From: Cytidiella melzeri | Taxonomy: Eukaryota > Basidiomycota > Agaricomycetes > Polyporales > Irpicaceae | NCBI GenBank assembly: GCA_022592445.1 | Contig: JABYQR010000046.1 | Span: 124,001 to 188,000, forward strand | Length of the DNA: 64,000 nucleotides | Direction: 5' to 3' | In this document: piece by piece, positions 50,971-64,000 of the stretch | Numbering within the stretch: position 1 is the first letter of the stretch | Layout of the letters: each line of letters begins with the position of its first letter | The notes under the pieces: generated by a model | The model's database searches: none | Told to the model about the DNA's origin: nothing | Seen by the model: the letters and a program-made list of their open reading frames with translations, nothing else | Translations under genes and position numbers: made by a program

Positions 50971-52498
50971 TTAATTGTCATAGATGCCATGAAATCTAGT
51001 TACCCGGTCTTTTCTCCTCTGCTCTGAAAACAACATTCTTTCCCAATTGAACCATACATCCAGCAAGTCATCTCCATCCTGCCAAATAGAGCAGTATGTA
51101 TTTTTAATGTGACTGATGCCTACCAGGCGGACACGAATTTGATGAAGACGGCAGATGCATCGCAGCAACTTGTAACGGAAGAGTGAATCATCACTTGGAA
51201 GAGGAATCCGTAAGCGACCAAATGAGCCCTGAATCTCTCGCATGCCCCACTCCGCTGATTGACGATATGATAGTAGCTGGCGATCAAATTGCATAAGCTG
51301 CTGCCGCTCATTTGCATTCTGAGGAAGCCGTTGTCCTTGTTTTAAAGGAGCACGAATGCGCTCATCAATGGAGACTGCTGTCCGGGGAAATGCTGTGTCT
51401 GCCACAAGGTAGTAGCCATTGGGGGTATGTTCCAGGAGTTGATCATACAGCCGGCGAGCAACACGTGCATCGTGAAAGCTGCCAGGTGCATTGACGCAGG
51501 CAAAGATGATCTCACCTGGATTTGAGTCAGCAAAAATCAAACAGATGTACTGTCTACTTACCCTTTGGAGAGAAAGCAATAACATTGCTAACAAAGTGCC
51601 CATGCAACCATCCATTGTACATTGCGTTCTCCATATCATCATCTCCAGATGTCTGTACGGGGAGGTTGAGCCCATCCACAACTCCAAATGCGTTGACGAG
51701 GAGTGCATGTTTGGCCTGGATAATCTGCGAATATTCCTCAAATTCCTCTCCTATTGGCCATGCAATCCTTGCTTCAGGCATGCTCTCCAAGGTTGCAAAG
51801 AGTGTGTCGAGGGAAGCATGAATGTACCGGTTTACAGTAGATGGAACAAGAGCAAAGATCTGCTGCAGGGAGACCTCACACATGGTAGAGTTTAACCAAT
51901 GCAATATTAGGCCAAGCGCTCCTGATGCATCCACAGAGCGACGTCCTAGACGAGGATTTCCGTGCACGTGTACATCTGGCCGGCGAATTGGCTGCGAGTC
52001 CCATTTCTCTGCAAAGCTCCCCAGAATGTAATGGAATGTAGCAACATCAAGCCCCATAGTAGTGATAAAAGCTCGATCACTTCGGCTCGCGTACAACCTC
52101 TGCCAAGGTGTATCACCTCGTGGGTTCTCCAGAAGCTCTGATCTTGTCAAATACAAGCGCTGTCGAGCTGCTTGCCTTCTTGCCTGAACCTCCGCTGCAC
52201 CACCTACAACGAAAGCTACGGTTGCTAGGTGGTTCTCCTCCTCCTCAGCCATCTCCTCCTCGTCATCTTCCTCATCCAAAAGATCTGCTATGTGGAATAA
52301 GAGAGCAAGATCTTCAAGTTCGTCAAAGTTGTTATAGTTCATGCCTTGCGGTTGCCGGTGCGTCGACATCGATGGAGCTCGAGGGAGAAACGCAAGTTGC
52401 GTTCGAAACGAACGCGAGCGCGGACTAGATCTCGATACGGCGTCATCAAACGTCGCGGCTGCAATTACACAGCAGCGAGACGAACGCGAATTTTCCAT
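50971..52498 (-). CDS. PIF/Harbinger DDE transposase
   Basis: Minus strand, one intron (SPKG/EIIF near 51510-51560). An acidic N-terminus is followed by a helical region (LGRRSVDASGALGLILHWL, VPSTVNRYIHASL) and the DDE_Tnp_4 core: first Asp in GVVDGLNLPV, second in YYLVADTAFP, Glu in SAEWGMREIQGSFGRL, then RYKLLRCICRLHQIR. Stop at 50971. The frame is open to an ATG at 52498; an internal Met before NYNNFDELEDLA is an alternative start. All three catalytic residues are present. With its Myb partner and exact TIRs the element could be mobile. Confidence 0.9.
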
Positions 52499-52988: not shown

Positions 52989-53398
52989 CTCACCTGAGGG
53001 TTGATATCGCAGTTTCACGTTGGAATAAGTATGACAATTCACGGAGCTTCAGCTCGAGTCGGATGCAAGATTACGGTGGTGGCAAGGACCGGCGGCGGGC
53101 CAAGTCGGAGGCCGTTCGAACAGCTAGTCTCAGGCGCTGATCTTTGTGGCGTGGGAACTAGTATTGCAAACGACGAAGACCTGCTTGTTACGAGAAAATC
53201 ATTGTCGAGATACACCGTCATACATTGAAGGGCGTTAGTTCTCATTCAAAAATACTCAAGGAGAGTTACTAGCAAGCCATTTATATATCTCCGTGTTCGA
53301 ATTACATTGGACGCGTCTTTAATTCTCAAACGACTCGGACCCCACCAGACGAGAGCCCGAACAACAGAATCAAGCCATGCTGACTACTTGAGGACAGA
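52989..53398. other. Gene-free spacer
   Basis: No recognisable gene between the MULE and the 3' end of the tandem beta-trefoil gene. Confidence 0.4.
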
Positions 53399-56300
53399 TC
53401 AACGATGTCCAATCCCGTGTCCGACTCCATGCCCGACGCCGTGTCCGCCTCCGCCGGGTTGACCTTGAGGAACGAAATCCCTCTTGACGGCGTGGATGAA
53501 CCAGTGATGCAGCTCGCCCGACGGTTTTTCCAACCTGATCTAAGCATATTTACCACGTTGAGCCCCAGCATCTTCCAACAGTAGAAACCTGCAAGGTACA
53601 TACCGGACTCGTCTCGTCATCGTCACTGCCGCCCACTTCACGGGCAGTCCAAAAGAGTTCGTCCTCCTTCTTCCCAGCGGGAGAAATACTACGTGGGAAA
53701 TGAGACACACAGCAGCGCCAGTAGTATACCAAAACTCACGTGTAATGACCGTCAGCTACGTGAATGATCTTCCAAACCCTGGGGCCGTCGCTCTGGAAGA
53801 CCTCGATGTGCTCTTGCGGCGGCTCATCGTCCCATGCGTACCTCCTCGTGCCCAGATTCTGGATAAGGTAGTACGGGCCAACCACCTTTTTCTCGATGTC
53901 GCCTCCATGGATACGGTCGACGCCGTTACCGCCATTACGGTCCAACCATTCCCGATCCACCTTGGTAAGCTTCCACTATCATAAAGTATCAGCCCCGGAG
54001 TGCGAAAACTGATGCAAAGAGTGCCATACAATCTCGTAAATTGGTTCCCTCAAGTTTTCTGGTTCGACGATTACAGGGATCTTCTCGGGGTCAAAACCTT
54101 CTGGAATGGGCCCAGGGGCAGCAGCCCAAAGCTTGGAAGGAACGTGCTGGATCTTGACGATTGAGGTCAAGTTGTCGCCTAAAACACCTTCATTGACATC
54201 ACGGAACCTCCAGTGGCTCTTTTCGCCCTCGAGATGCTGAAGCTTAATCTGGGCGAGAGAATTAGTATGGCATCCTCACGCACGGTGCAGGCGTATGAGA
54301 AGCAACGTACGGGATTGCCTGACTGCTGATTGACATCGGTCCAGAAGAGGTCCTTCTCCATCTGACCAACTGGAGAGATTCTAGTAATGGTGGCGAATGA
54401 GTATCGATGGATCCATAGCGGCGTGCGCAGCCATTCACTTACATGTAGTGCCCATCTGAAACGTGAAGAATCTTCCACAGCCTCTTGGTAGTATGTAGAT
54501 CGACAGGATCCCCCTCCTTAGGAGGCTCACGATCCCAAGCGTATTTGCCAGTGGCAACGTTCTGAATGACATAGTCATCAGCAAAATAATCATGGAGGGA
54601 TCTACCTAGATCAACCAGGTTAGGGTTAGTCTTGTTATACCGTTTTGGCATTTTCTTATCAGACTTGATAATCACAAGTTATCCTGGCTTACCATGATAT
54701 TCACAAATCACTACGGGAAACGACGATAAAGGTAGCTCACCTATGGAAAACGATGATAAAGGTATACCTCGCTCCGCTAAAGCCTGAGCGCTGAGCAGCC
54801 GTTCAAGTCAGGGACTCGGATGGCGTCGACGTGAACTCGCAAGATTTTGATAGAGTACCGAACATTATACAGTAACGGTAGTATGAAAATTCGCAATGAC
54901 TGTAGATATACACGGTATTGGCACATATATAGCATAGAAATAGTAGCAAGGTTGAAACAAAAGTCGAGTGCGGGAGATCAATTGTAGTGTTTGGTAGCCG
55001 TCAGAGTCGTGCCAATTGAAGATGCAGCGAGCAGGATGCGCGCGTCGCGGCTGTTTGTTCAATTTAACTGTACATACTCGTTCAGCACGATGTAGTCTAA
55101 GAGTTGTACCTGACACTCACTGTAAGTTTCCCTCAAGCCACGGCCTCACAGATGCGCGAAGCCTAATCCATCGTACTCATCGACTCCTTCGTCATCGTCG
55201 GATCCAAGGTCAATATCAGCATCACGGTCCAAGTCATCCCTCTCATCGAGCACGTCTTGGTCGCCGCCCTCGGGCTCCTCCTCATCCTCCGAGTCTTCGC
55301 TATCGTTCTCGTCTTCTGCATCTTCTCCATATCCGAAATCTTCTATCTCAGAGACAATCTCCGCTTCCTCCTCAGACCCGTTGGCCTGGGCTTCATCGTC
55401 GTTGCCGTTGTCCGCGTCCTTCGTGCCCTGCTGAGGGCCTTCTTGGCTGTCGCTGTCCTCGTCTTCAGCTTCTGCGAGTCGTGGTCAAGAGTTGATGTCA
55501 GAGTGAGTAAAAGCGTGTATAAGAAACACTCGCCTGTTGCCTCAAGATCATTTGTGGCACTTGCGCCGAGGGCGACAAGTGTATCTTGAATTTTCACGAT
55601 CTGCCGCAGCGCCTTGTGGCCAATTCCGCCGCCGAGGTACCTCATAAACATGTCTCTGTCTGCAAACCTTGTGTCGACGTAGATATTAGCATGCTCACAC
55701 AGCTGGTATAGCAAGAAACACTTACATGTTGACATAGTAATACTGCCAGTCTTCGTTGCTATGAGAGTCGTTGGAGTCGGCGTCGTACTGGCGTGCAATG
55801 GAGGCGCCCTTGAGTAGATCATCTGTACGCCCGTAATGGAATGCGGGAATAAGATGCACTGCTCGAATGATCAGCTGGGGGTCTAGAAACCCAAATGCCT
55901 CTCCTCCCTCCGCATCGACAAATCCGATCCTGTGCAAACGCCGTTCAGAGAATCCACCTGGTGCGCTCATGTCCCGCCCAAACCACCGTACCCACACAAA
56001 CTCCATACGTTGGAATTCTTGCGGCGCAGACCCAACAGGGTTGTATCTTGCGTTGACATGGAATATGCCGAGGACGCGGGCGTACCAGTACGGGTGGGTC
56101 TGGGACGTGCTGTTCCCCTCCTCGTGTCCAAGAACCATTATGTCGGCATGGTTCCGAGGGTTGATGCAGTCTTGATCGCGGCGCAGGTCGTATGTTGTAA
56201 AGTTCACTCGAAGGGTTTTATGCCGGTAAAGGCGATTCTGCTCTAGCTGCAGCGCAAGTCGTTCAGGTACAGTGTAATCTTCTTCGTCACCGCTATACTC

Positions 56301-59300
56301 TTTTTGCGTCAATCGTGTGATGAGATGGTTCTTGAGCTGCAGAATGAAATCCTGGACAACGGAACTGAGATTTTATGAACTATAGAAGAATAGGATACTG
56401 TACCTGCAATGCAGGGTCATCTTTATGCTCCGATGCCCATGCAATCACGTCAAAGTGATCTCGATCCGAGTCGGACATGGCATGGTGAGCGTGAAACGGT
56501 ATTCCGGGAGGAGCGTTTCCTGTGGCGAAGCCAGATGCACCTGTCTCAGGCTCTTTGCGCGGTCGGCCCCGTTTCCGCGAGGTAGGCTGCTTGTTATGGT
56601 TTAACTCATCTTCGCTTGTTAGCCTTGTCCGTCGAGATGCTTCGCGTTCAGAAATGGCGTGGAGGAGTCTCTCGCGGCGGACATGTTGTCCAATCTGCTT
56701 CATGTACAACTTCCGGTTTGTTCGCGCATAGAACTTTTTTGCACGTCGATGCTCGAGTTCACCCTATGCTTATAAGTGAGTCTCAGCTAAGACACAACAA
56801 TCCATTGATTGTCACTCGCCGTCTGAGTTGAGTACCCATCAGTCGTTCCAAACTGTCGAATGGCAGCAGCAACATGGCGCGTGTTGTGCCACTTGAAAGT
56901 CGTCAAGTTCAGTGTCTTCTGCTTTCGACCAGGTTCCTTTGGCTTTCCCTTTTCTGCAAGATGTGAGCTACTCGCTGTTACCTCTTCTGTATTCATCTCC
57001 GCCTCTGCACTGTGATCTGCAGCTGTACTTGACCGCTTTCCTTTTCCTTTTCCCTTTCCCTTTCCTTTCTCCAAAAGTTTGGCTTCTCGGCGATGACGTG
57101 CTGCTTCCTCTGTTGGTAGTTCCTGAACGTCTAACTTCTCACATTCTTTCGCAAACCGCCGCACTGTGTTTCCCATCGAGGTTGTGGACATCTCGAGGAC
57201 GGTGAGTGTACTTTCTGTATGTAATCTCAGCTTTGCGAGCGCATGCCAGACTGCGCACTCCCAGATCACATTTAAGACAATCGTGTTGAAGGGCTCTGGT
57301 AAAAGGCCCTCAACCACGACAATGGCCACCTGATTGGTTAATTTTAAGTTTGGGTAACAATGGAAATCACGCACCTTGAGAACATTCTCATAGTCGCGTG
57401 CAGCAAAGTTCCCCAAAGCCGAAACATTGTTCTTGAATTTCCGTATGGTACCACGACCAAAGGTGGGAACCTTTATGAAACTGGGAGGTGCGTCGTTCGT
57501 CTTTACTCTGTAATCGTTCTCAGCAGCTCGTAACGTACCGGGTATTCAACGTGGCAAGATTGTCGCTTGCACAAGCAAACAGTACACGTAGGATGTGCGT
57601 GAATATAGCCTTCCAGGTACCTAGCTCAAACTCGTGCAGGATGTCTGGAACAAACATTGAGTAATGGTTTATCCCAAAACCAGCAAGACGCTGAGAAAAG
57701 GCACTCTGAAAGGATTGTAAGTAGAAAAGCGTGCTGTAACTCATGAAGATCAGGTGCAGACTTACTCTCGTCGGCAGAAGAGATTGCGGTCCTAAGAGCG
57801 TTTCGACCGCTTTGCGCTTGATGCGATAGCCCTTTTCGAATATCCATTTGCGTGCCAAGTCAATAGTGCCTCGGAGACTGAAGGTATCTTCCCGCATCTT
57901 TCTTGACTTGATTGCATCGCTTTTGGACCCCATGCGTGCAATGTCCTTCTTTTGAATCAGGCAGGTCGGACATGGACACTGCGCAAGAAAACGGATGCAA
58001 GTGAGTGCTACCCTGCTCAAGCAAAATCAGCCTGTATCTCCTCGCTACAACGCACAGTACATACCGCTCTGGATAGTCCGCGGAGTATGTAAGAAATCGA
58101 GGAAACAGTCGTCGAATGATGCCGTCGCCGCAGGTGACAAGAATCCCGTGCTCATACGCGTGCATGAACTCGGCATCCAGCAGCATGAGCCATATACCCT
58201 GCATAAGCTGGCTGCGACAGAAGCGTAGCACGTCTGGAGTGGCTGTGACATTGTACACTTTACGATAGAAATCCTGGATAAGTTCGGGTAACTAGCAGGA
58301 GCGAAACATGAGAACTATTGTTGAGATGTCATCTCGATAATAGCACGGCAACTCACCTTGGGGATATAAGCAAGATGGTGAGCTGCAAAGTTCGAAGGCT
58401 TCGCGCGCATGTACTTTGAGAGCGCACCAAACCATAGGTAAATTGGCCACAGATATGCCGTCCCAAAATTGGTCAAGTGCGACGAGTCAGAATATCCCAT
58501 GAGAGGTGCAGCAACATATTCGACGGTGGCTGCATCGTCTGGATTACGTGGTAAGGCATTTATTTTCACCTGTTCAGCCAAGAGAGCATCCGAGTTGTAG
58601 AGGTCTGTCCAGACACGTTCGCCAGGTGGATCGTCGGCGTCGAGAGTAGCCGTTGACCCAGAAAGGGGATCCTCCAGGTGAAAGAGCTTGAATGGCAGGT
58701 TATGAAAGTGTTTCTGTGTTGTGTCCTCATACGCAGACTTGACAACTGCAATCAGCGAGCGGTACCAGATACCCTCCACCACAAACTCGGGGGCCTGAGA
58801 CTCTGATGCGTACGATGTACCCTCCTTTGGCACTGGAATCTTGACCAATCCCTCTTTCCAGCCGTCGTCTGCCGAGAACATCCCAGCGGGAGCAGCGTAG
58901 TCGTCCAGAACCTTGAGTTCGCGCTTGATGGAGAACTCCTTGAGATGCGCAGCGTTGAAGTCATCAGCTTGTATAACAGTGTCAACTAGACGCTGCAGCT
59001 CTGCTTCCGACTTAACCTGCCCACCCGAGTATTGCCAGCGCAGACAGCGAAATGTGGTTGGGTTCTTGAAAGGAGCATACCAGTTGCTGACCACATCGGC
59101 GACCTTCTGACCAAGAACACGTAGAGGGTTCTGTTGTACAAAGCCATCTGCTTCGGGTACAGCAGCAATCGTGGTCGAGTCAACCAAAGAGCTAGGCGTT
59201 GTGAGCTCTGTAGGGTCGCGCTGAGGTTTCTTTGCGTAGAGACGGTAGAGGCCAAACTTGTCGATGTCTGTGACACAGCCTGGTGTCATGGATTGCGAGG

Positions 59301-62300
59301 TGGACGACACCAGCTCAGGTAGAGATGTAGAGGCAGATGTGGTAGAGGATGAAGGTGGGGGTGCACGTCGTCGAGGTCGAGGTGGCTGCGGCTTTGGAGC
59401 TACTAATCGTCGAAGATCATGGGTCATAGCGATTCCGCCGTAAGCAGGCAGAAAATCTTTGTAGGCACCTGGAATCTTACGCACACGCCCGGATCGTGTG
59501 TATAACGGCGGAGCAGCCTGTAGTTGAGCATTCGAAGGACCTGCACCTGGGTCATTCGGCTCGAAATCTACAGGAGGTCCTTCCTCCGAAGTTTCCAGCC
59601 TTGCCTCGCTCTATATCGGTTCCAAATACGTTGTTCGTCTAAGCTTGTTTTGCAGCAGTAAACAGACAGAATGTACTTACCTCGTCCTCGTTCAATTGTC
59701 TGCGCAGTTCCCGTCGTTCATTTTCGACCTGGCTGTTGTTCTGTCTGCGCGGTAGCTTTGCGTGCGAGGGTTTATGCGTAGCTGCTTGAAGAGTCCTGTT
59801 CGAGGCTTGGTTGATCGTCTTGGCACGTTCACAGTAATTCATGTGTCGATGAAGGCCTTGGGCCTTGTCAAACTCTTTACCACAGCCATGACAGCCGTAC
59901 ATGACAAGATTCAGTATCAGGAAAAAAAGAACGCCCACCTCCAGCCGCATGCTGAACGTCGCGGGAAAGAGGGGAAGACGTTACCTAGCACTATGCAATT
60001 CCCTCGATGATCTTATAAGGCAGAAACAATTGCAAATGACTCAGTTTGTGTATGCAATTACTGGCTATCATATCGTCTATGTGCCATTACAAGAAATAGC
60101 TATTCCTGATCAAAGTGGTTGAGCGGTAGTACACAGAACAAACAGCGGTGCAATTTCCTTACCGACACTTTTTCCTCCCCGACATCAGCATGAGGCCCTC
60201 CTGACACTCTTGGATCACCTAATTGGAGGACTCCGGTAGCAGATACTCCGCTACCGTGAGTTGGAAAGTGGGTGGGGAGGACTCCGGTAGCAGATGCTCC
60301 GCTACCGTGAGTTGAAATGTGGGTGGGGAGGACTCCGGTAGCAGATGCTCCGCTACCGTGAGTTGGAATGTGGGTGGTGGATGGTTGTGGTGGTCACTTA
60401 TCCAAAGAGATCCAGTAACTCGACGTGGCGAATACATTCACCGACGAGAGCACCACTCGGAGAGGAAACGGTAAGGAGGCTAGGCTTGATGGAATGTGGG
60501 TGGTAGTGATGGTGGTAATGATGAGAGCGAAGGAAAAGGTGGTAGGAGTAGTGGTGGTGGTGGGGGGGGGTTGGCGTTGCAGGAGGAGGACTCGTGGTGT
60601 GGTCGCCGTGGTACGTGGTGGTGGCAGCGAGAGTGGTTTAGGCGCCTGAGAAATGTTGGGCGCTCACGAAATCAGCGCCGCCACCTGCAATCAACACGTC
60701 CCCCAGGCTCGATAGGCCTGAGTAACTTGCTTGTAAATTACTCTTAGCCACAACAGGCTGATATAAGCTATGACGGTAGTACTCTATGAACCTTGCGTAG
60801 AGTAGAATTGCATATGAAAGACGTACAAGCTATGCGCGCTACACCATCATCTATATATGGACCACAAAATCCCACGCTCCCTCATGAGCAATGAAATCAG
60901 TATCGGCGACGCGGGAATTTCCCGATGCTTTACCGCATACAGTGGCCGCTCACCGTTTTCCTTTGCTCTTCAACCATCACCATTATGCCTCCTGTACGAC
61001 CTTGCTTTCCTCCACGACCTACTCCTGTTCGGCATGCCAATACCCAACTAGCACAAACAGGCAATAGACCTCCAAGAGACATATCACCCGATGCACAATC
61101 AGAAGCAGAGCAACAAGCTGAACAACCTCGGGCTCAACGTCCTCCTCGATCTCAGCAGGCTCCTCCTCAACCGTCTTCTCGGGTGCCCCCTCAAACTGTA
61201 CTGGCAGATGAGCAGCCTGAGGAAGAGGATGCATTTGCGTCTGCCCGGCGCAAAGATATCATTAATTGTCTGGATGATGCAAAAGCACGAAAGTAAGCCC
61301 TTCTCACACTCAATCATATATTCTGCTGATACTCCTGATACACCACAGCACGTCGTTACATTGGAGAAAGTTCAACATGAACGCGCGATGGGTTCAGCGC
61401 CTGCTTGGACCCGGCGTCGAGATTTACAAGGTTCTCACATACGGCCCTTACTGCACTGAGGTCGATGGAGAGCTTCCAGCTCTTGACGCGCATGGGGGAC
61501 GATTTATGAAGAACCTGTGCGTATACGTCTGTTTCTTACTACGCGCATACAGTTACATACAAGCATGTGATAGCAAACCCTCACAGCGTACAAAGCTTGG
61601 ACGCCAGTATGAGCTCCTGTTCGATCTCTTTCCCGACTTTGAGACAGACCTGGAATATTACGCTGCTGACCCTGATGTGATGGAAAGTCTGAAGAAATTT
61701 GTGAGTAACTACACTTGCTTTGTACGCATATATGCACTTGCTATTTTGATTTCAGTTAACAGCAGCCAGCGACGACGGTCGCGCCGATGATTGCAAAACT
61801 CTCAAGGACGGCGTATTGAACTACATCCCATCTCCACCGGTTGGCACTGAATTGCTCACTGTTGGGAACACCAAGACTGCACGTGGATGGATGCACTACT
61901 CAACTGCGCGTTTCCTGTCGCCGCGCGACATGCTAGCAGAGTTTGACGAGGATCCAGAAAAGTCAGGTTTGTTTTTCCTTTGGTGCTTGTGTGCTCACCG
62001 TCATCCGCAGGTTTTGTGCCGATGTTCTCGAGGGTCGCAAAATACTTGAAGGCGGAGAGTTCATGGCATTCATGTATGACCTAGATGATGCAGGATTTCC
62101 GACCAAACTAGATGCAGGCCTTTTGCGCAGCCCGTTTTTACTTTCGGTATGTCACGGCCACGCTCACGGACTTTGCTGATATTGTCCGTATTAGGTGTTT
62201 CGTCATATTTTCACCGGAAAGTCATCTGTGTTGAAGAAGACCCCGGGCCCTGCTGGTGTTGGTCGCCGTCCTATTGCAGTCGCTGCAAAGCGGGACAGAG

Positions 62301-63663
62301 TCTCACCTGAGATGATCGCTTGGGCAGCTGTTATGGTAAGTGAGTCTGTCGTTTCATGAATGATGCTCATCATTCTTCATTAGGGTTATTATGCGTTAAG
62401 TAGCCAACCAAACTGGTCCGTTCACGATGGCACGATTGATCTGCGTGTCTTATGGGACGCCGTCTTGAACCTCTTCAAAAATTCCCAGTCCGTATGGGCA
62501 GTCGAGACTTTACAATGGTGGAACCTGTACGTTTTTTTGTTGCTCTTCTCTGAAGCTGTACAACGTTCACATGCTCTTTAGAAACGTCTGGGGTCCTTCA
62601 GCCGTGGATATCGACGAACGTTGTCAGCAGCCACAACGTAAGACACTGGCAGAGCAAATTACGGAGCAGCGTGCCGCGGCTCAACAGGAATCCGATGTCT
62701 CTGACTAACGGTAATTGTGCCAATGGTTGTTTGCTCACGCTCTTTGCTTCCGACTGACACAATGTTCTAGAATCTGTGCACGAACAAATCCTCGTAACCA
62801 ACTGCAACACTCATGTCTTCATCTTGCTCAAATCACGACGCCTCGCATGCTTCTCTTTGAACAGCACCACCGGATCCTGTCTCGACTACTCTGCTGTATT
62901 CTCAAGTCTCGTATGGATCGACGCTATCGAACAGCTCCTCGCATTACTGTATTATTCCGTCTCAATTTCGTTCTCTTGCGCGCTCTGCATCACTCGGACA
63001 ATGTCTCTCATACTGTATCGTAGCCATAGCAATAGATGGACAACAATAATATTCATAGCCATGCTGTATAATGTGCCCTGGTATCTGCGCGACCAATCCC
63101 CAACCAGCTGCCTGGGGCCGCTACCCAACCTACAGTAGATCATGCTTACCTAGGTTGATCGACGAAGATCATACTTACCATGGTTTATCAACGTTTCGCA
63201 CCTTGGCAGGCTTGATCTTACTTTATCAACTTATTCAAAGATTAGGATGGTTTTCTCTAACTTTTCCGTTCTGTAAATTGCTGATCTGTCGTGCTACCGT
63301 TGACAATCGCAGATCTTTTTAGATAATCAGAATGTTTTTCCTGCGATGCGTGGTGCTTCTCGGCACTTACGAGGATGAGTTTCCACTGGAGGCAACGTAC
63401 ATATTCAGGATCTCCAGGCTGTGGTAAGACGCAACAGACAGACGTACCACTTCGTATTTGTCGTACTGTAAGTTGTCAGGCTCCAAGACGATAGGGTATA
63501 CGTCAAGCGGCGTGCCCTGTCGGGGGACGGCAGCACCGTTACAGGCCCAGAGCCCACTTGCGGCGTTCTGTATCTTCACAATCCGAGTTTGAGCGGCGTC
63601 GACTTTAACTCCAGGATCGTCAACAATATACTTCATGGAAGTGTCGACTTGAACGGCCGTCAT
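53399..63663 (-). CDS. Tandem beta-trefoil protein with a transposon-filled giant intron
   Basis: Eight exons: 63663-63448, 63385-63371, 54663-54443, 54380-54311, 54248-54030, 53975-53740, 53688-53604 and 53539-53399. They sum to 1203 nt, 400 residues, and every junction is GT-AG and in phase. The protein has two trefoils of three lobes: (1) IVKIQNAASGLW..VWKL; YVIQNVATGKYAW..LWKILHVSDGHYI; DLFWTDV..WRFRDV; (2) IVKIQHVPSKLW..IWKL; YYLIQNLGTRRYAW..VWKIIHVADGHYT; ELFWTAR..WFIHAV, then a Gly/His-rich tail. The first lobe of trefoil 1 lies 8.7 kb from the rest, beyond a Plavaka element. The 40-residue spacing from WKL to IQN is identical in the two domains only when the exons are joined this way. 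No signal peptide. Lectin or I66-type inhibitor function is possible. If the long intron is not removed, the gene is dead. Confidence 0.7.
55146..59902 (-). CDS. Plavaka transposase
   Basis: Minus strand, start MYGCHGCGKEF at 59902, a C2H2 finger (C..C..HRHMNYC) typical of Plavaka N-termini. Conserved blocks follow: WYAPFKNPTTFRCLRWQYSG, LMGYSDSSHLTNFGTAYLWP, VTCGDGIIRRLFPRFLTYSA, CPCPTCLIQKKDIARMGSKS, FGINHYSMFVPDILHEFELG, WKAIFTHILRVLFA, VPTFGRGTIRKFKNN, LLPEPFNTIVLNVIWECAVW, HALAKLRLHTESTL, IRQFGTTDGYSTQTGELEHR, a variable C-terminal region with GFSERRLHRIGF and an acidic tail, stop TGA at 55146-55148. About a dozen introns. I saw no frameshift or nonsense codon in the conserved parts but could not verify every junction. 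Plavaka is a fungal CACTA-related superfamily; its catalytic residues were not assigned. Confidence 0.85.
60225..60377. repeat. Three tandem 51-bp repeats, each containing a hairpin
   Basis: Units at 60225-60275, 60276-60326 and 60327-60377 differ at a few bases. Each holds the inverted pair CGGTAGC / GCTACCG. The array lies between the transposase and the DUF6698 gene. A minus frame through it encodes a 17-residue repeat (PPTFQLTVAEHLLPESS), probably fortuitous. It is followed by GT/GGTGGT simple repeats (60480-60580). Confidence 0.9.
60985..62708 (+). CDS. DUF6698 family protein
   Basis: Start MPPVRPCFPPRP at 60985; a Gln/Pro-rich disordered N-terminus (about 90 residues) follows. Then KFNMNARWVQRLLGPGVEIY, QYELLFDLFPDFETDLEYY, LTAASDDGRADDCKTLKDGV, RGWMHYSTARFLSPRDMLAE, DVLEGRKILEGGEFMAFMYD, LLRSPFLLSVFRHIFTGKSS, IAWAAVMGYYALSSQPNW and AVETLQWWNLNVWGP, which is the DUF6698 pattern of basidiomycete genomes. 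Stop TAA at 62706-62708. Around eight short introns. The function is unknown. The family is multicopy and often lies among transposons. No lesion seen. Confidence 0.78.
62709..63173. other. Gene-free stretch inside the giant intron
   Basis: No recognisable coding. It leads into the direct repeats GATCATGCTTACC / GATCATACTTACC at about 63138-63180. Confidence 0.4.
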
Positions 63664-64000
63664 AGTAAGCTGCTGAGCGAATTCGAGTTATGAGGTGAAG
63701 GAGGTGCTGGCAAGGATACGGAGTCTATTCCACTGGGATTCGGGTCGTATATCCAGGTGAGGATTATGGCTCTAAAACTGGTTAGCCTTCGGCTGATTTA
63801 CTCAGACTCTAAGTATAAATTTAGAATTAGCTACCATCCATGATGTATCACAGCGTGCATGGTGTGTAAAACCTTCCAGTGTACTGACGCACTTAGCAGG
63901 GCGAAATACTGCTCGATACATGAGAGAGCATAGGGCGTTAAACTGATGAATTAAGTGAGTGTTTAGCGACCTACGGTCACCGTATCTGTTCTCAGCCTTC
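63664..64000 (-). other. Upstream region of the tandem beta-trefoil gene
   Basis: Probable promoter for the minus-strand gene starting at 63663. A TATAAATTT stretch at about 63812 is on the plus strand and is not clearly placed for this gene. No other feature seen. Confidence 0.35.

Follow-up and report, generated by a model that had tools for sequence, protein, structure and literature searches.

A full-length Plavaka-type transposon in exon 2 of a trefoil-like gene of Cytidiella melzeri

A full-length Plavaka-type transposon interrupts exon 2 of a predicted two-lobed trefoil-like gene in Cytidiella melzeri (Polyporales, Irpicaceae), and the insertion has very probably inactivated the gene. 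The window analysed here is a stretch of 64,000 nucleotides (C401:124001-188000) from a 49.7-Mb assembly of 731 contigs. A first-pass annotation of this DNA had read the two coding parts as one gene with a whole Plavaka transposon between them, removed from the transcript as an 8.7-kb intron. The single gene and the intervening transposon are borne out, whereas the splicing is not, as the insertion is exonic. Comparison with a paralog and a relative instead supports the alternative raised in the same annotation, a gene recently hit by an insertion.

The gene, its family and the point of insertion

The gene lies on the minus strand, with seven exons and two predicted trefoil-like lobes (Table 1), and DNA homology continues for about 90 bp upstream of its ATG. 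The right-hand part matches RicinB_lectin_2 (PF14200) at 26.6 bits (cut-off 25.6); measured against the ricin-B-type beta-trefoil lectin-like proteins of this family, the gene therefore passes the cut-off, but narrowly. The paralogs P0002 and P0003 reach 30.4 and 32.3 bits, and none of four single exon pieces searched alone reached the cut-off. A sequence search found no solved structure for the gene product. P0001, the 243-aa public model for this locus, starts in exon 3 and is without exon 1.

Further family members lie on contigs C426, C334, C695 and C689, with a fragment at C401:189655. The paralog on C426 is intact, having four lobes, 13 exons and a single open frame of 659 residues, with AG before exons 2-13 and GT after exons 1-12. 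All 18 introns measured, six in the window gene and 12 in this paralog, are 51-64 nt long. Protein queries returned four proteins for the right-hand gene part and six for an alignment of four C. melzeri proteins, and every match in both searches came from C. melzeri save P0005, a metagenome relative encoded on a 1319-base contig. A copy of the gene's last exon on C426 (L017:3694-3789) ends another public model, P0006, whose sole listed Pfam domain is PF20151; its presence there may be a gene-model artefact.

Table 1. Features of the interrupted gene and of the inserted element, in window positions
Feature	Position	Strand	Remarks
Exon 1, 72 codons	63448..63663	-	paralog exon C426:5337-5543 78% identical
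Intron 1, 62 nt, GTACGT...CAG	63386..63447	-	intron at equal place in paralog C426
Exon 2, 5' piece, 12 codons from conserved W	63350..63385	-	aligned to C426 and P0005
AC, left copy of likely target-site duplication	63350..63351	-	one base from element
Single unmatched base between flanking AC and element	63349..63349	-	
Plavaka element, 8773 bp, CATCG...TGATG	54576..63348	-	ends shared with C1, C74 and C5 copies
First in-frame stop, exon 2 read into element	63257..63259	-	after 30 further codons
DUF6698-like ORFs, strand opposite transposase	61816..62176	+	PF20414, 19.6 and 18.9 bits (cut-off 23.7)
Transposase ORF, first part of Plavaka domain	58315..59484	-	PF18759, 36.1 bits, profile 46-166 of 325
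Transposase ORF, middle of Plavaka domain	57860..58258	-	PF18759, 29.1 bits, profile 195-236
Proposed acceptor AG, inside element	54664..54665	-	one of 5 AGs open in gene frame
Proposed 30-residue exon segment, a transposon terminus, 88 bp	54576..54663	-	exact in C1 and C74; 99% in C5
ATG in element end, possible read-out start	54649..54651	-	in frame with downstream exons
AC, right copy of likely target-site duplication	54574..54575	-	
Exon 2, 3' piece	54443..54573	-	C426 domain 1 from residue 83; P0005 from residue 80
Exon 3	54311..54380	-	
Exon 4	54030..54248	-	
Exon 5, second lobe, 40-residue spacing	53740..53975	-	C426:7460-7693 90% identical
Exon 6	53604..53688	-	
Exon 7 and stop codon	53399..53539	-	

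To locate the point of insertion, each side of the gene was aligned on its own to four relatives, the left side comprising exon 1 and the first 12 codons of exon 2. On domain 1 of the C426 paralog the left side reaches residue 82 and the right side takes over at 83; on P0005 the corresponding residues are 79 and 80. Since the two sides abut on both proteins, the element sits inside exon 2 and, judged by these two cleanest alignments, removed no gene sequence. The insertion follows codon 12 of that exon and does not occupy a pre-existing intron. Two other relatives fit less neatly and count against a clean junction: on P0002 the left alignment breaks off at query residue 77 of 84 (target 72), whereas the right starts at 80, and on P0003 the sides end and start at 27 and 29, with one target residue between them. 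The likely target-site duplication of this copy is imperfect, being AC on both sides with an extra base on the left. An early candidate, an 8-bp duplication (TGATTATC), was dropped after other copies of the element had fixed its ends.

It is conceivable that the assembly has joined two different genes, each carrying a copy of the element, through the repeat itself, as the genome holds three other near-identical long copies and such repeats can confuse assemblers. We consider this extremely unlikely. The sides meet exactly at 82/83 on C426 and at 79/80 on P0005, and AC stands on both sides, so that a misassembly would imply that the element had inserted twice at one and the same codon; moreover, the window copy differs at 10 positions from the copy on contig C1.

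The Plavaka element and neighbouring mobile DNA

Its sequence marks the insert as a Plavaka-type DNA transposon of full length. A repeat search of 53000-64000 gave no insert-flanking pair among the 20 of 43 direct families and the 25 of 31 inverted pairs listed, and the ends were therefore set from other copies. Querying the genome with both ends of the insert brought up three other long copies, on contigs C1, C74 and C5, which stop at window positions 63348 and 54576, except that C74 aligns one base beyond 54576. The C1 copy (C1:300500-309272) is 99.886% identical to that in the window over 8773 bp, with 10 substitutions and no gaps. The C74 copy is nearly full length (98.5-99.0% identical), and the C5 copy, from which the middle is absent, is 98.0-98.5% identical. 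Contig C256 carries a 227-bp element end (97% identical) and C712 a relative of the same end (73%). Perfect 2-bp target-site duplications bound three of the four two-ended copies: TT in C1, AT in C74 and CA in C5. The termini are CATCG..TGATG in the window, C1 and C5, and CATTG..TGATG in C74.

Two ORFs of the element match the Plavaka transposase domain (PF18759) above its cut-off of 26.3 bits, and a third scores 10.3 bits, under that cut-off; the DUF6698-like ORFs on the other strand likewise score below theirs (Table 1). The accessible part of a 2025 account (PMC12730594) describes PlavakaB elements with termini CATCA..TGATG and 2- or 3-bp target duplications. The C. melzeri element shares with these the Plavaka transposase domain, a 5' CATC, a 3' TGATG and 2-bp duplications, and differs from them in that the fifth 5' base is G rather than A in the window copy, while the C74 copy differs at two 5' bases. 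No TET/JBP domain was found among the 13 element ORFs scanned; PlavakaB elements lacking TET/JBP are also described in that part of the account. The interior of the element holds a 51-bp unit in three tandem copies (window 60225-60377).

Mobile DNA lies beside the gene as well as inside it, as a further transposase ORF (window 50971-51741; DDE_Tnp_4, 53.8 bits) is found downstream. On the other side, 2 kb beyond the start of the window gene and head to head with it, is the start of a second trefoil-like gene (L018:5655-5861 onward, at C401:189655). A different repeat, which has at least 39 further genomic matches, cuts this start near the end of exon 1, and queries with exon 1 and exon 5 did not find the rest of the gene on its contig. 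Two adjacent family members have been struck by two unrelated repeats. Elsewhere, on C695, another paralog, itself uninterrupted, has a 46-bp relic of the element end (L020:3600-3696; 98% identical) about 1 kb upstream.

The proposed splicing as an 8.7-kb intron

Under the splice model, the intron would run from an exonic GTAAGT to an AG in the element's own 3' end, and 30 residues, nearly all of them transposon-encoded, would be added to the first lobe. The signals are real: GTAAGT at 63370, AG at 54665-54664 and a frame that stays open from the AG into the gene are all present. The second lobe has a loop naturally 23 residues longer at this site (40 versus 17), so that the product might fold; were the model true, the 30 residues would join a loop already 23 residues longer in the sister lobe. 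Nevertheless, we regard removal of the element in this way as very unlikely.

The gene parts used in this model do not coincide with the exons. The block 63663-63371 is trefoil-like coding sequence on the minus strand, as first described, but it is split by a 62-nt intron (63447-63386), and the left part of the gene does not end at 63371, before the proposed donor, as it continues to 63350/63349. The supposed donor, 63370-63365, encodes V-S within exon 2, and the residues that follow it (E-K-H) match P0005, with a poorer match in C426. On the far side the gene resumes at 54575/54573, and 54573-53399 belongs to it as claimed, while 54663-54576 is the end of the element. Both the acceptor and the 30 residues that follow lie in a transposon terminus that recurs at other insertions. 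We considered 54663-54576 as gene sequence and rejected it: the segment recurs in the three other long copies, and when translated it reaches scores of 20-24 against five family proteins, compared with 30 and 32 for the best of 20 shuffles against two of the proteins.

One support offered for the join was that it alone placed 40 residues between WKL and IQN in both domains. The sum is right (5+30+5), yet first lobes have 17. Among pattern-matched domains, the spacing from W to IQN, or its equivalent, is 17 in all six non-terminal domains and 40 in all five C-terminal ones; a C-terminal domain missed by the pattern (L019:3924) has 37 by alignment. P0005, counted on its sequence, has 17 in the first lobe and 40 in the second. 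In the window gene, the 12 codons to the left of the element and five to its right give 17 for the first lobe. Set against these counts, the value of 40 produced by the proposed splice is a coincidence.

Five AGs in the element end are open in the gene frame, and together they cover all three phases; any donor would thus obtain an in-phase join, and an in-frame join weighs little. With the two GTs in the left piece of exon 2 there are 10 possible joins, four of which are in phase when GT/AG phase alone is counted. It is tempting to suppose that an element end of this kind, open in frame and with AGs in all phases, makes exonic insertions tolerable through 8.7-kb splicing, although we give this idea very little credence. 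The GTAAGT sits 22 bp before the element, and at the window's own frequencies 0.8% of 36-nt stretches should contain an exact GTAAGT and 2.3% a GTRAGT. Its position so near the element is a mild coincidence that favours the splice model.

Splicing of this sort is biologically possible, since plants splice large or exonic elements. According to the portions of these reports available to us, a 13-kb CACTA element, TgmR, lies in an intron of a soybean MYB gene, with splicing shown by RNA-Seq (PMC4219821), and a full-length ONSEN element is spliced from an exon in Arabidopsis (PMC12112155). Like TgmR, as that portion describes it, the C. melzeri element is large, belongs to the wider CACTA-like group and lies within a gene. 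Unlike TgmR, which occupies an existing intron, it is exonic, and its splicing is hypothetical. Against the splice model stand the introns of 51-64 nt in the window gene and its paralog. As background, mean intron lengths given in the accessible part of a further source are 63 bp in Cryptococcus neoformans and 469 bp in Candida glabrata (PMC8476143). A literature search aimed at fungal cases led to the Arabidopsis report and, as far as it was followed, to no fungal transposon removed by splicing, which is no proof of absence.

Fate of the gene and significance

We favour a model in which the insertion inactivates the gene. Transcripts from the gene's own promoter would enter the element, and 30 more codons would be translated before a stop. 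The product would be a truncated protein, a fragment of the first lobe, and the downstream exons would be left as an orphaned 3' part. Intact exons and splice sites for short introns would suit a working gene equally well, which counts against inactivation; the exons probably still look intact because the insertion is young. The pooled exons 2b, 4 and 5 have a dN/dS of 0.31 relative to C426 (dS 0.31), and exon 1 alone 0.51, and the exons have diverged from C426 under constraint. In the time that gave two element copies 10 differences in 8773 bp, the exons, roughly 1.1 kb in all, should have gained about one change, so that intact exons need not indicate present function. The divergence between the C1 and window copies gives an age for whichever insertion came later, and this could be the one in C1. 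The C426 paralog supplies an intact relative. No allele without the insertion was seen among the exon 1 matches, the best of at least seven others being 78% identical.

Alternatively, the element end may act as promoter for the downstream exons, whose transcript would be read from an ATG at 54651 into a truncated lectin-like protein that begins with about 26 transposon residues. This ATG is in frame, with A at -3, and no stop intervenes before that of the gene. An in-frame position arises by chance in one case out of three, the product would be without exon 1 and the beginning of exon 2, and the public model has its start further on, in exon 3. We therefore consider such read-out very unlikely, and inactivation remains our preferred reading.

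Were splicing nonetheless to prove true, the element would be an extremely long fungal intron, and the locus would show whether transposons can be hidden by the spliceosomes of fungi. The locus also illustrates how chance can yield a plausible in-frame splice where the end of a transposon is open in the frame of the gene. As we read it, the locus offers a clear example of gene interruption by a full-length Plavaka element and would otherwise be ordinary transposon damage. Its main use is that a single genome allows the element's ends and duplications, and intact relatives, to be compared.
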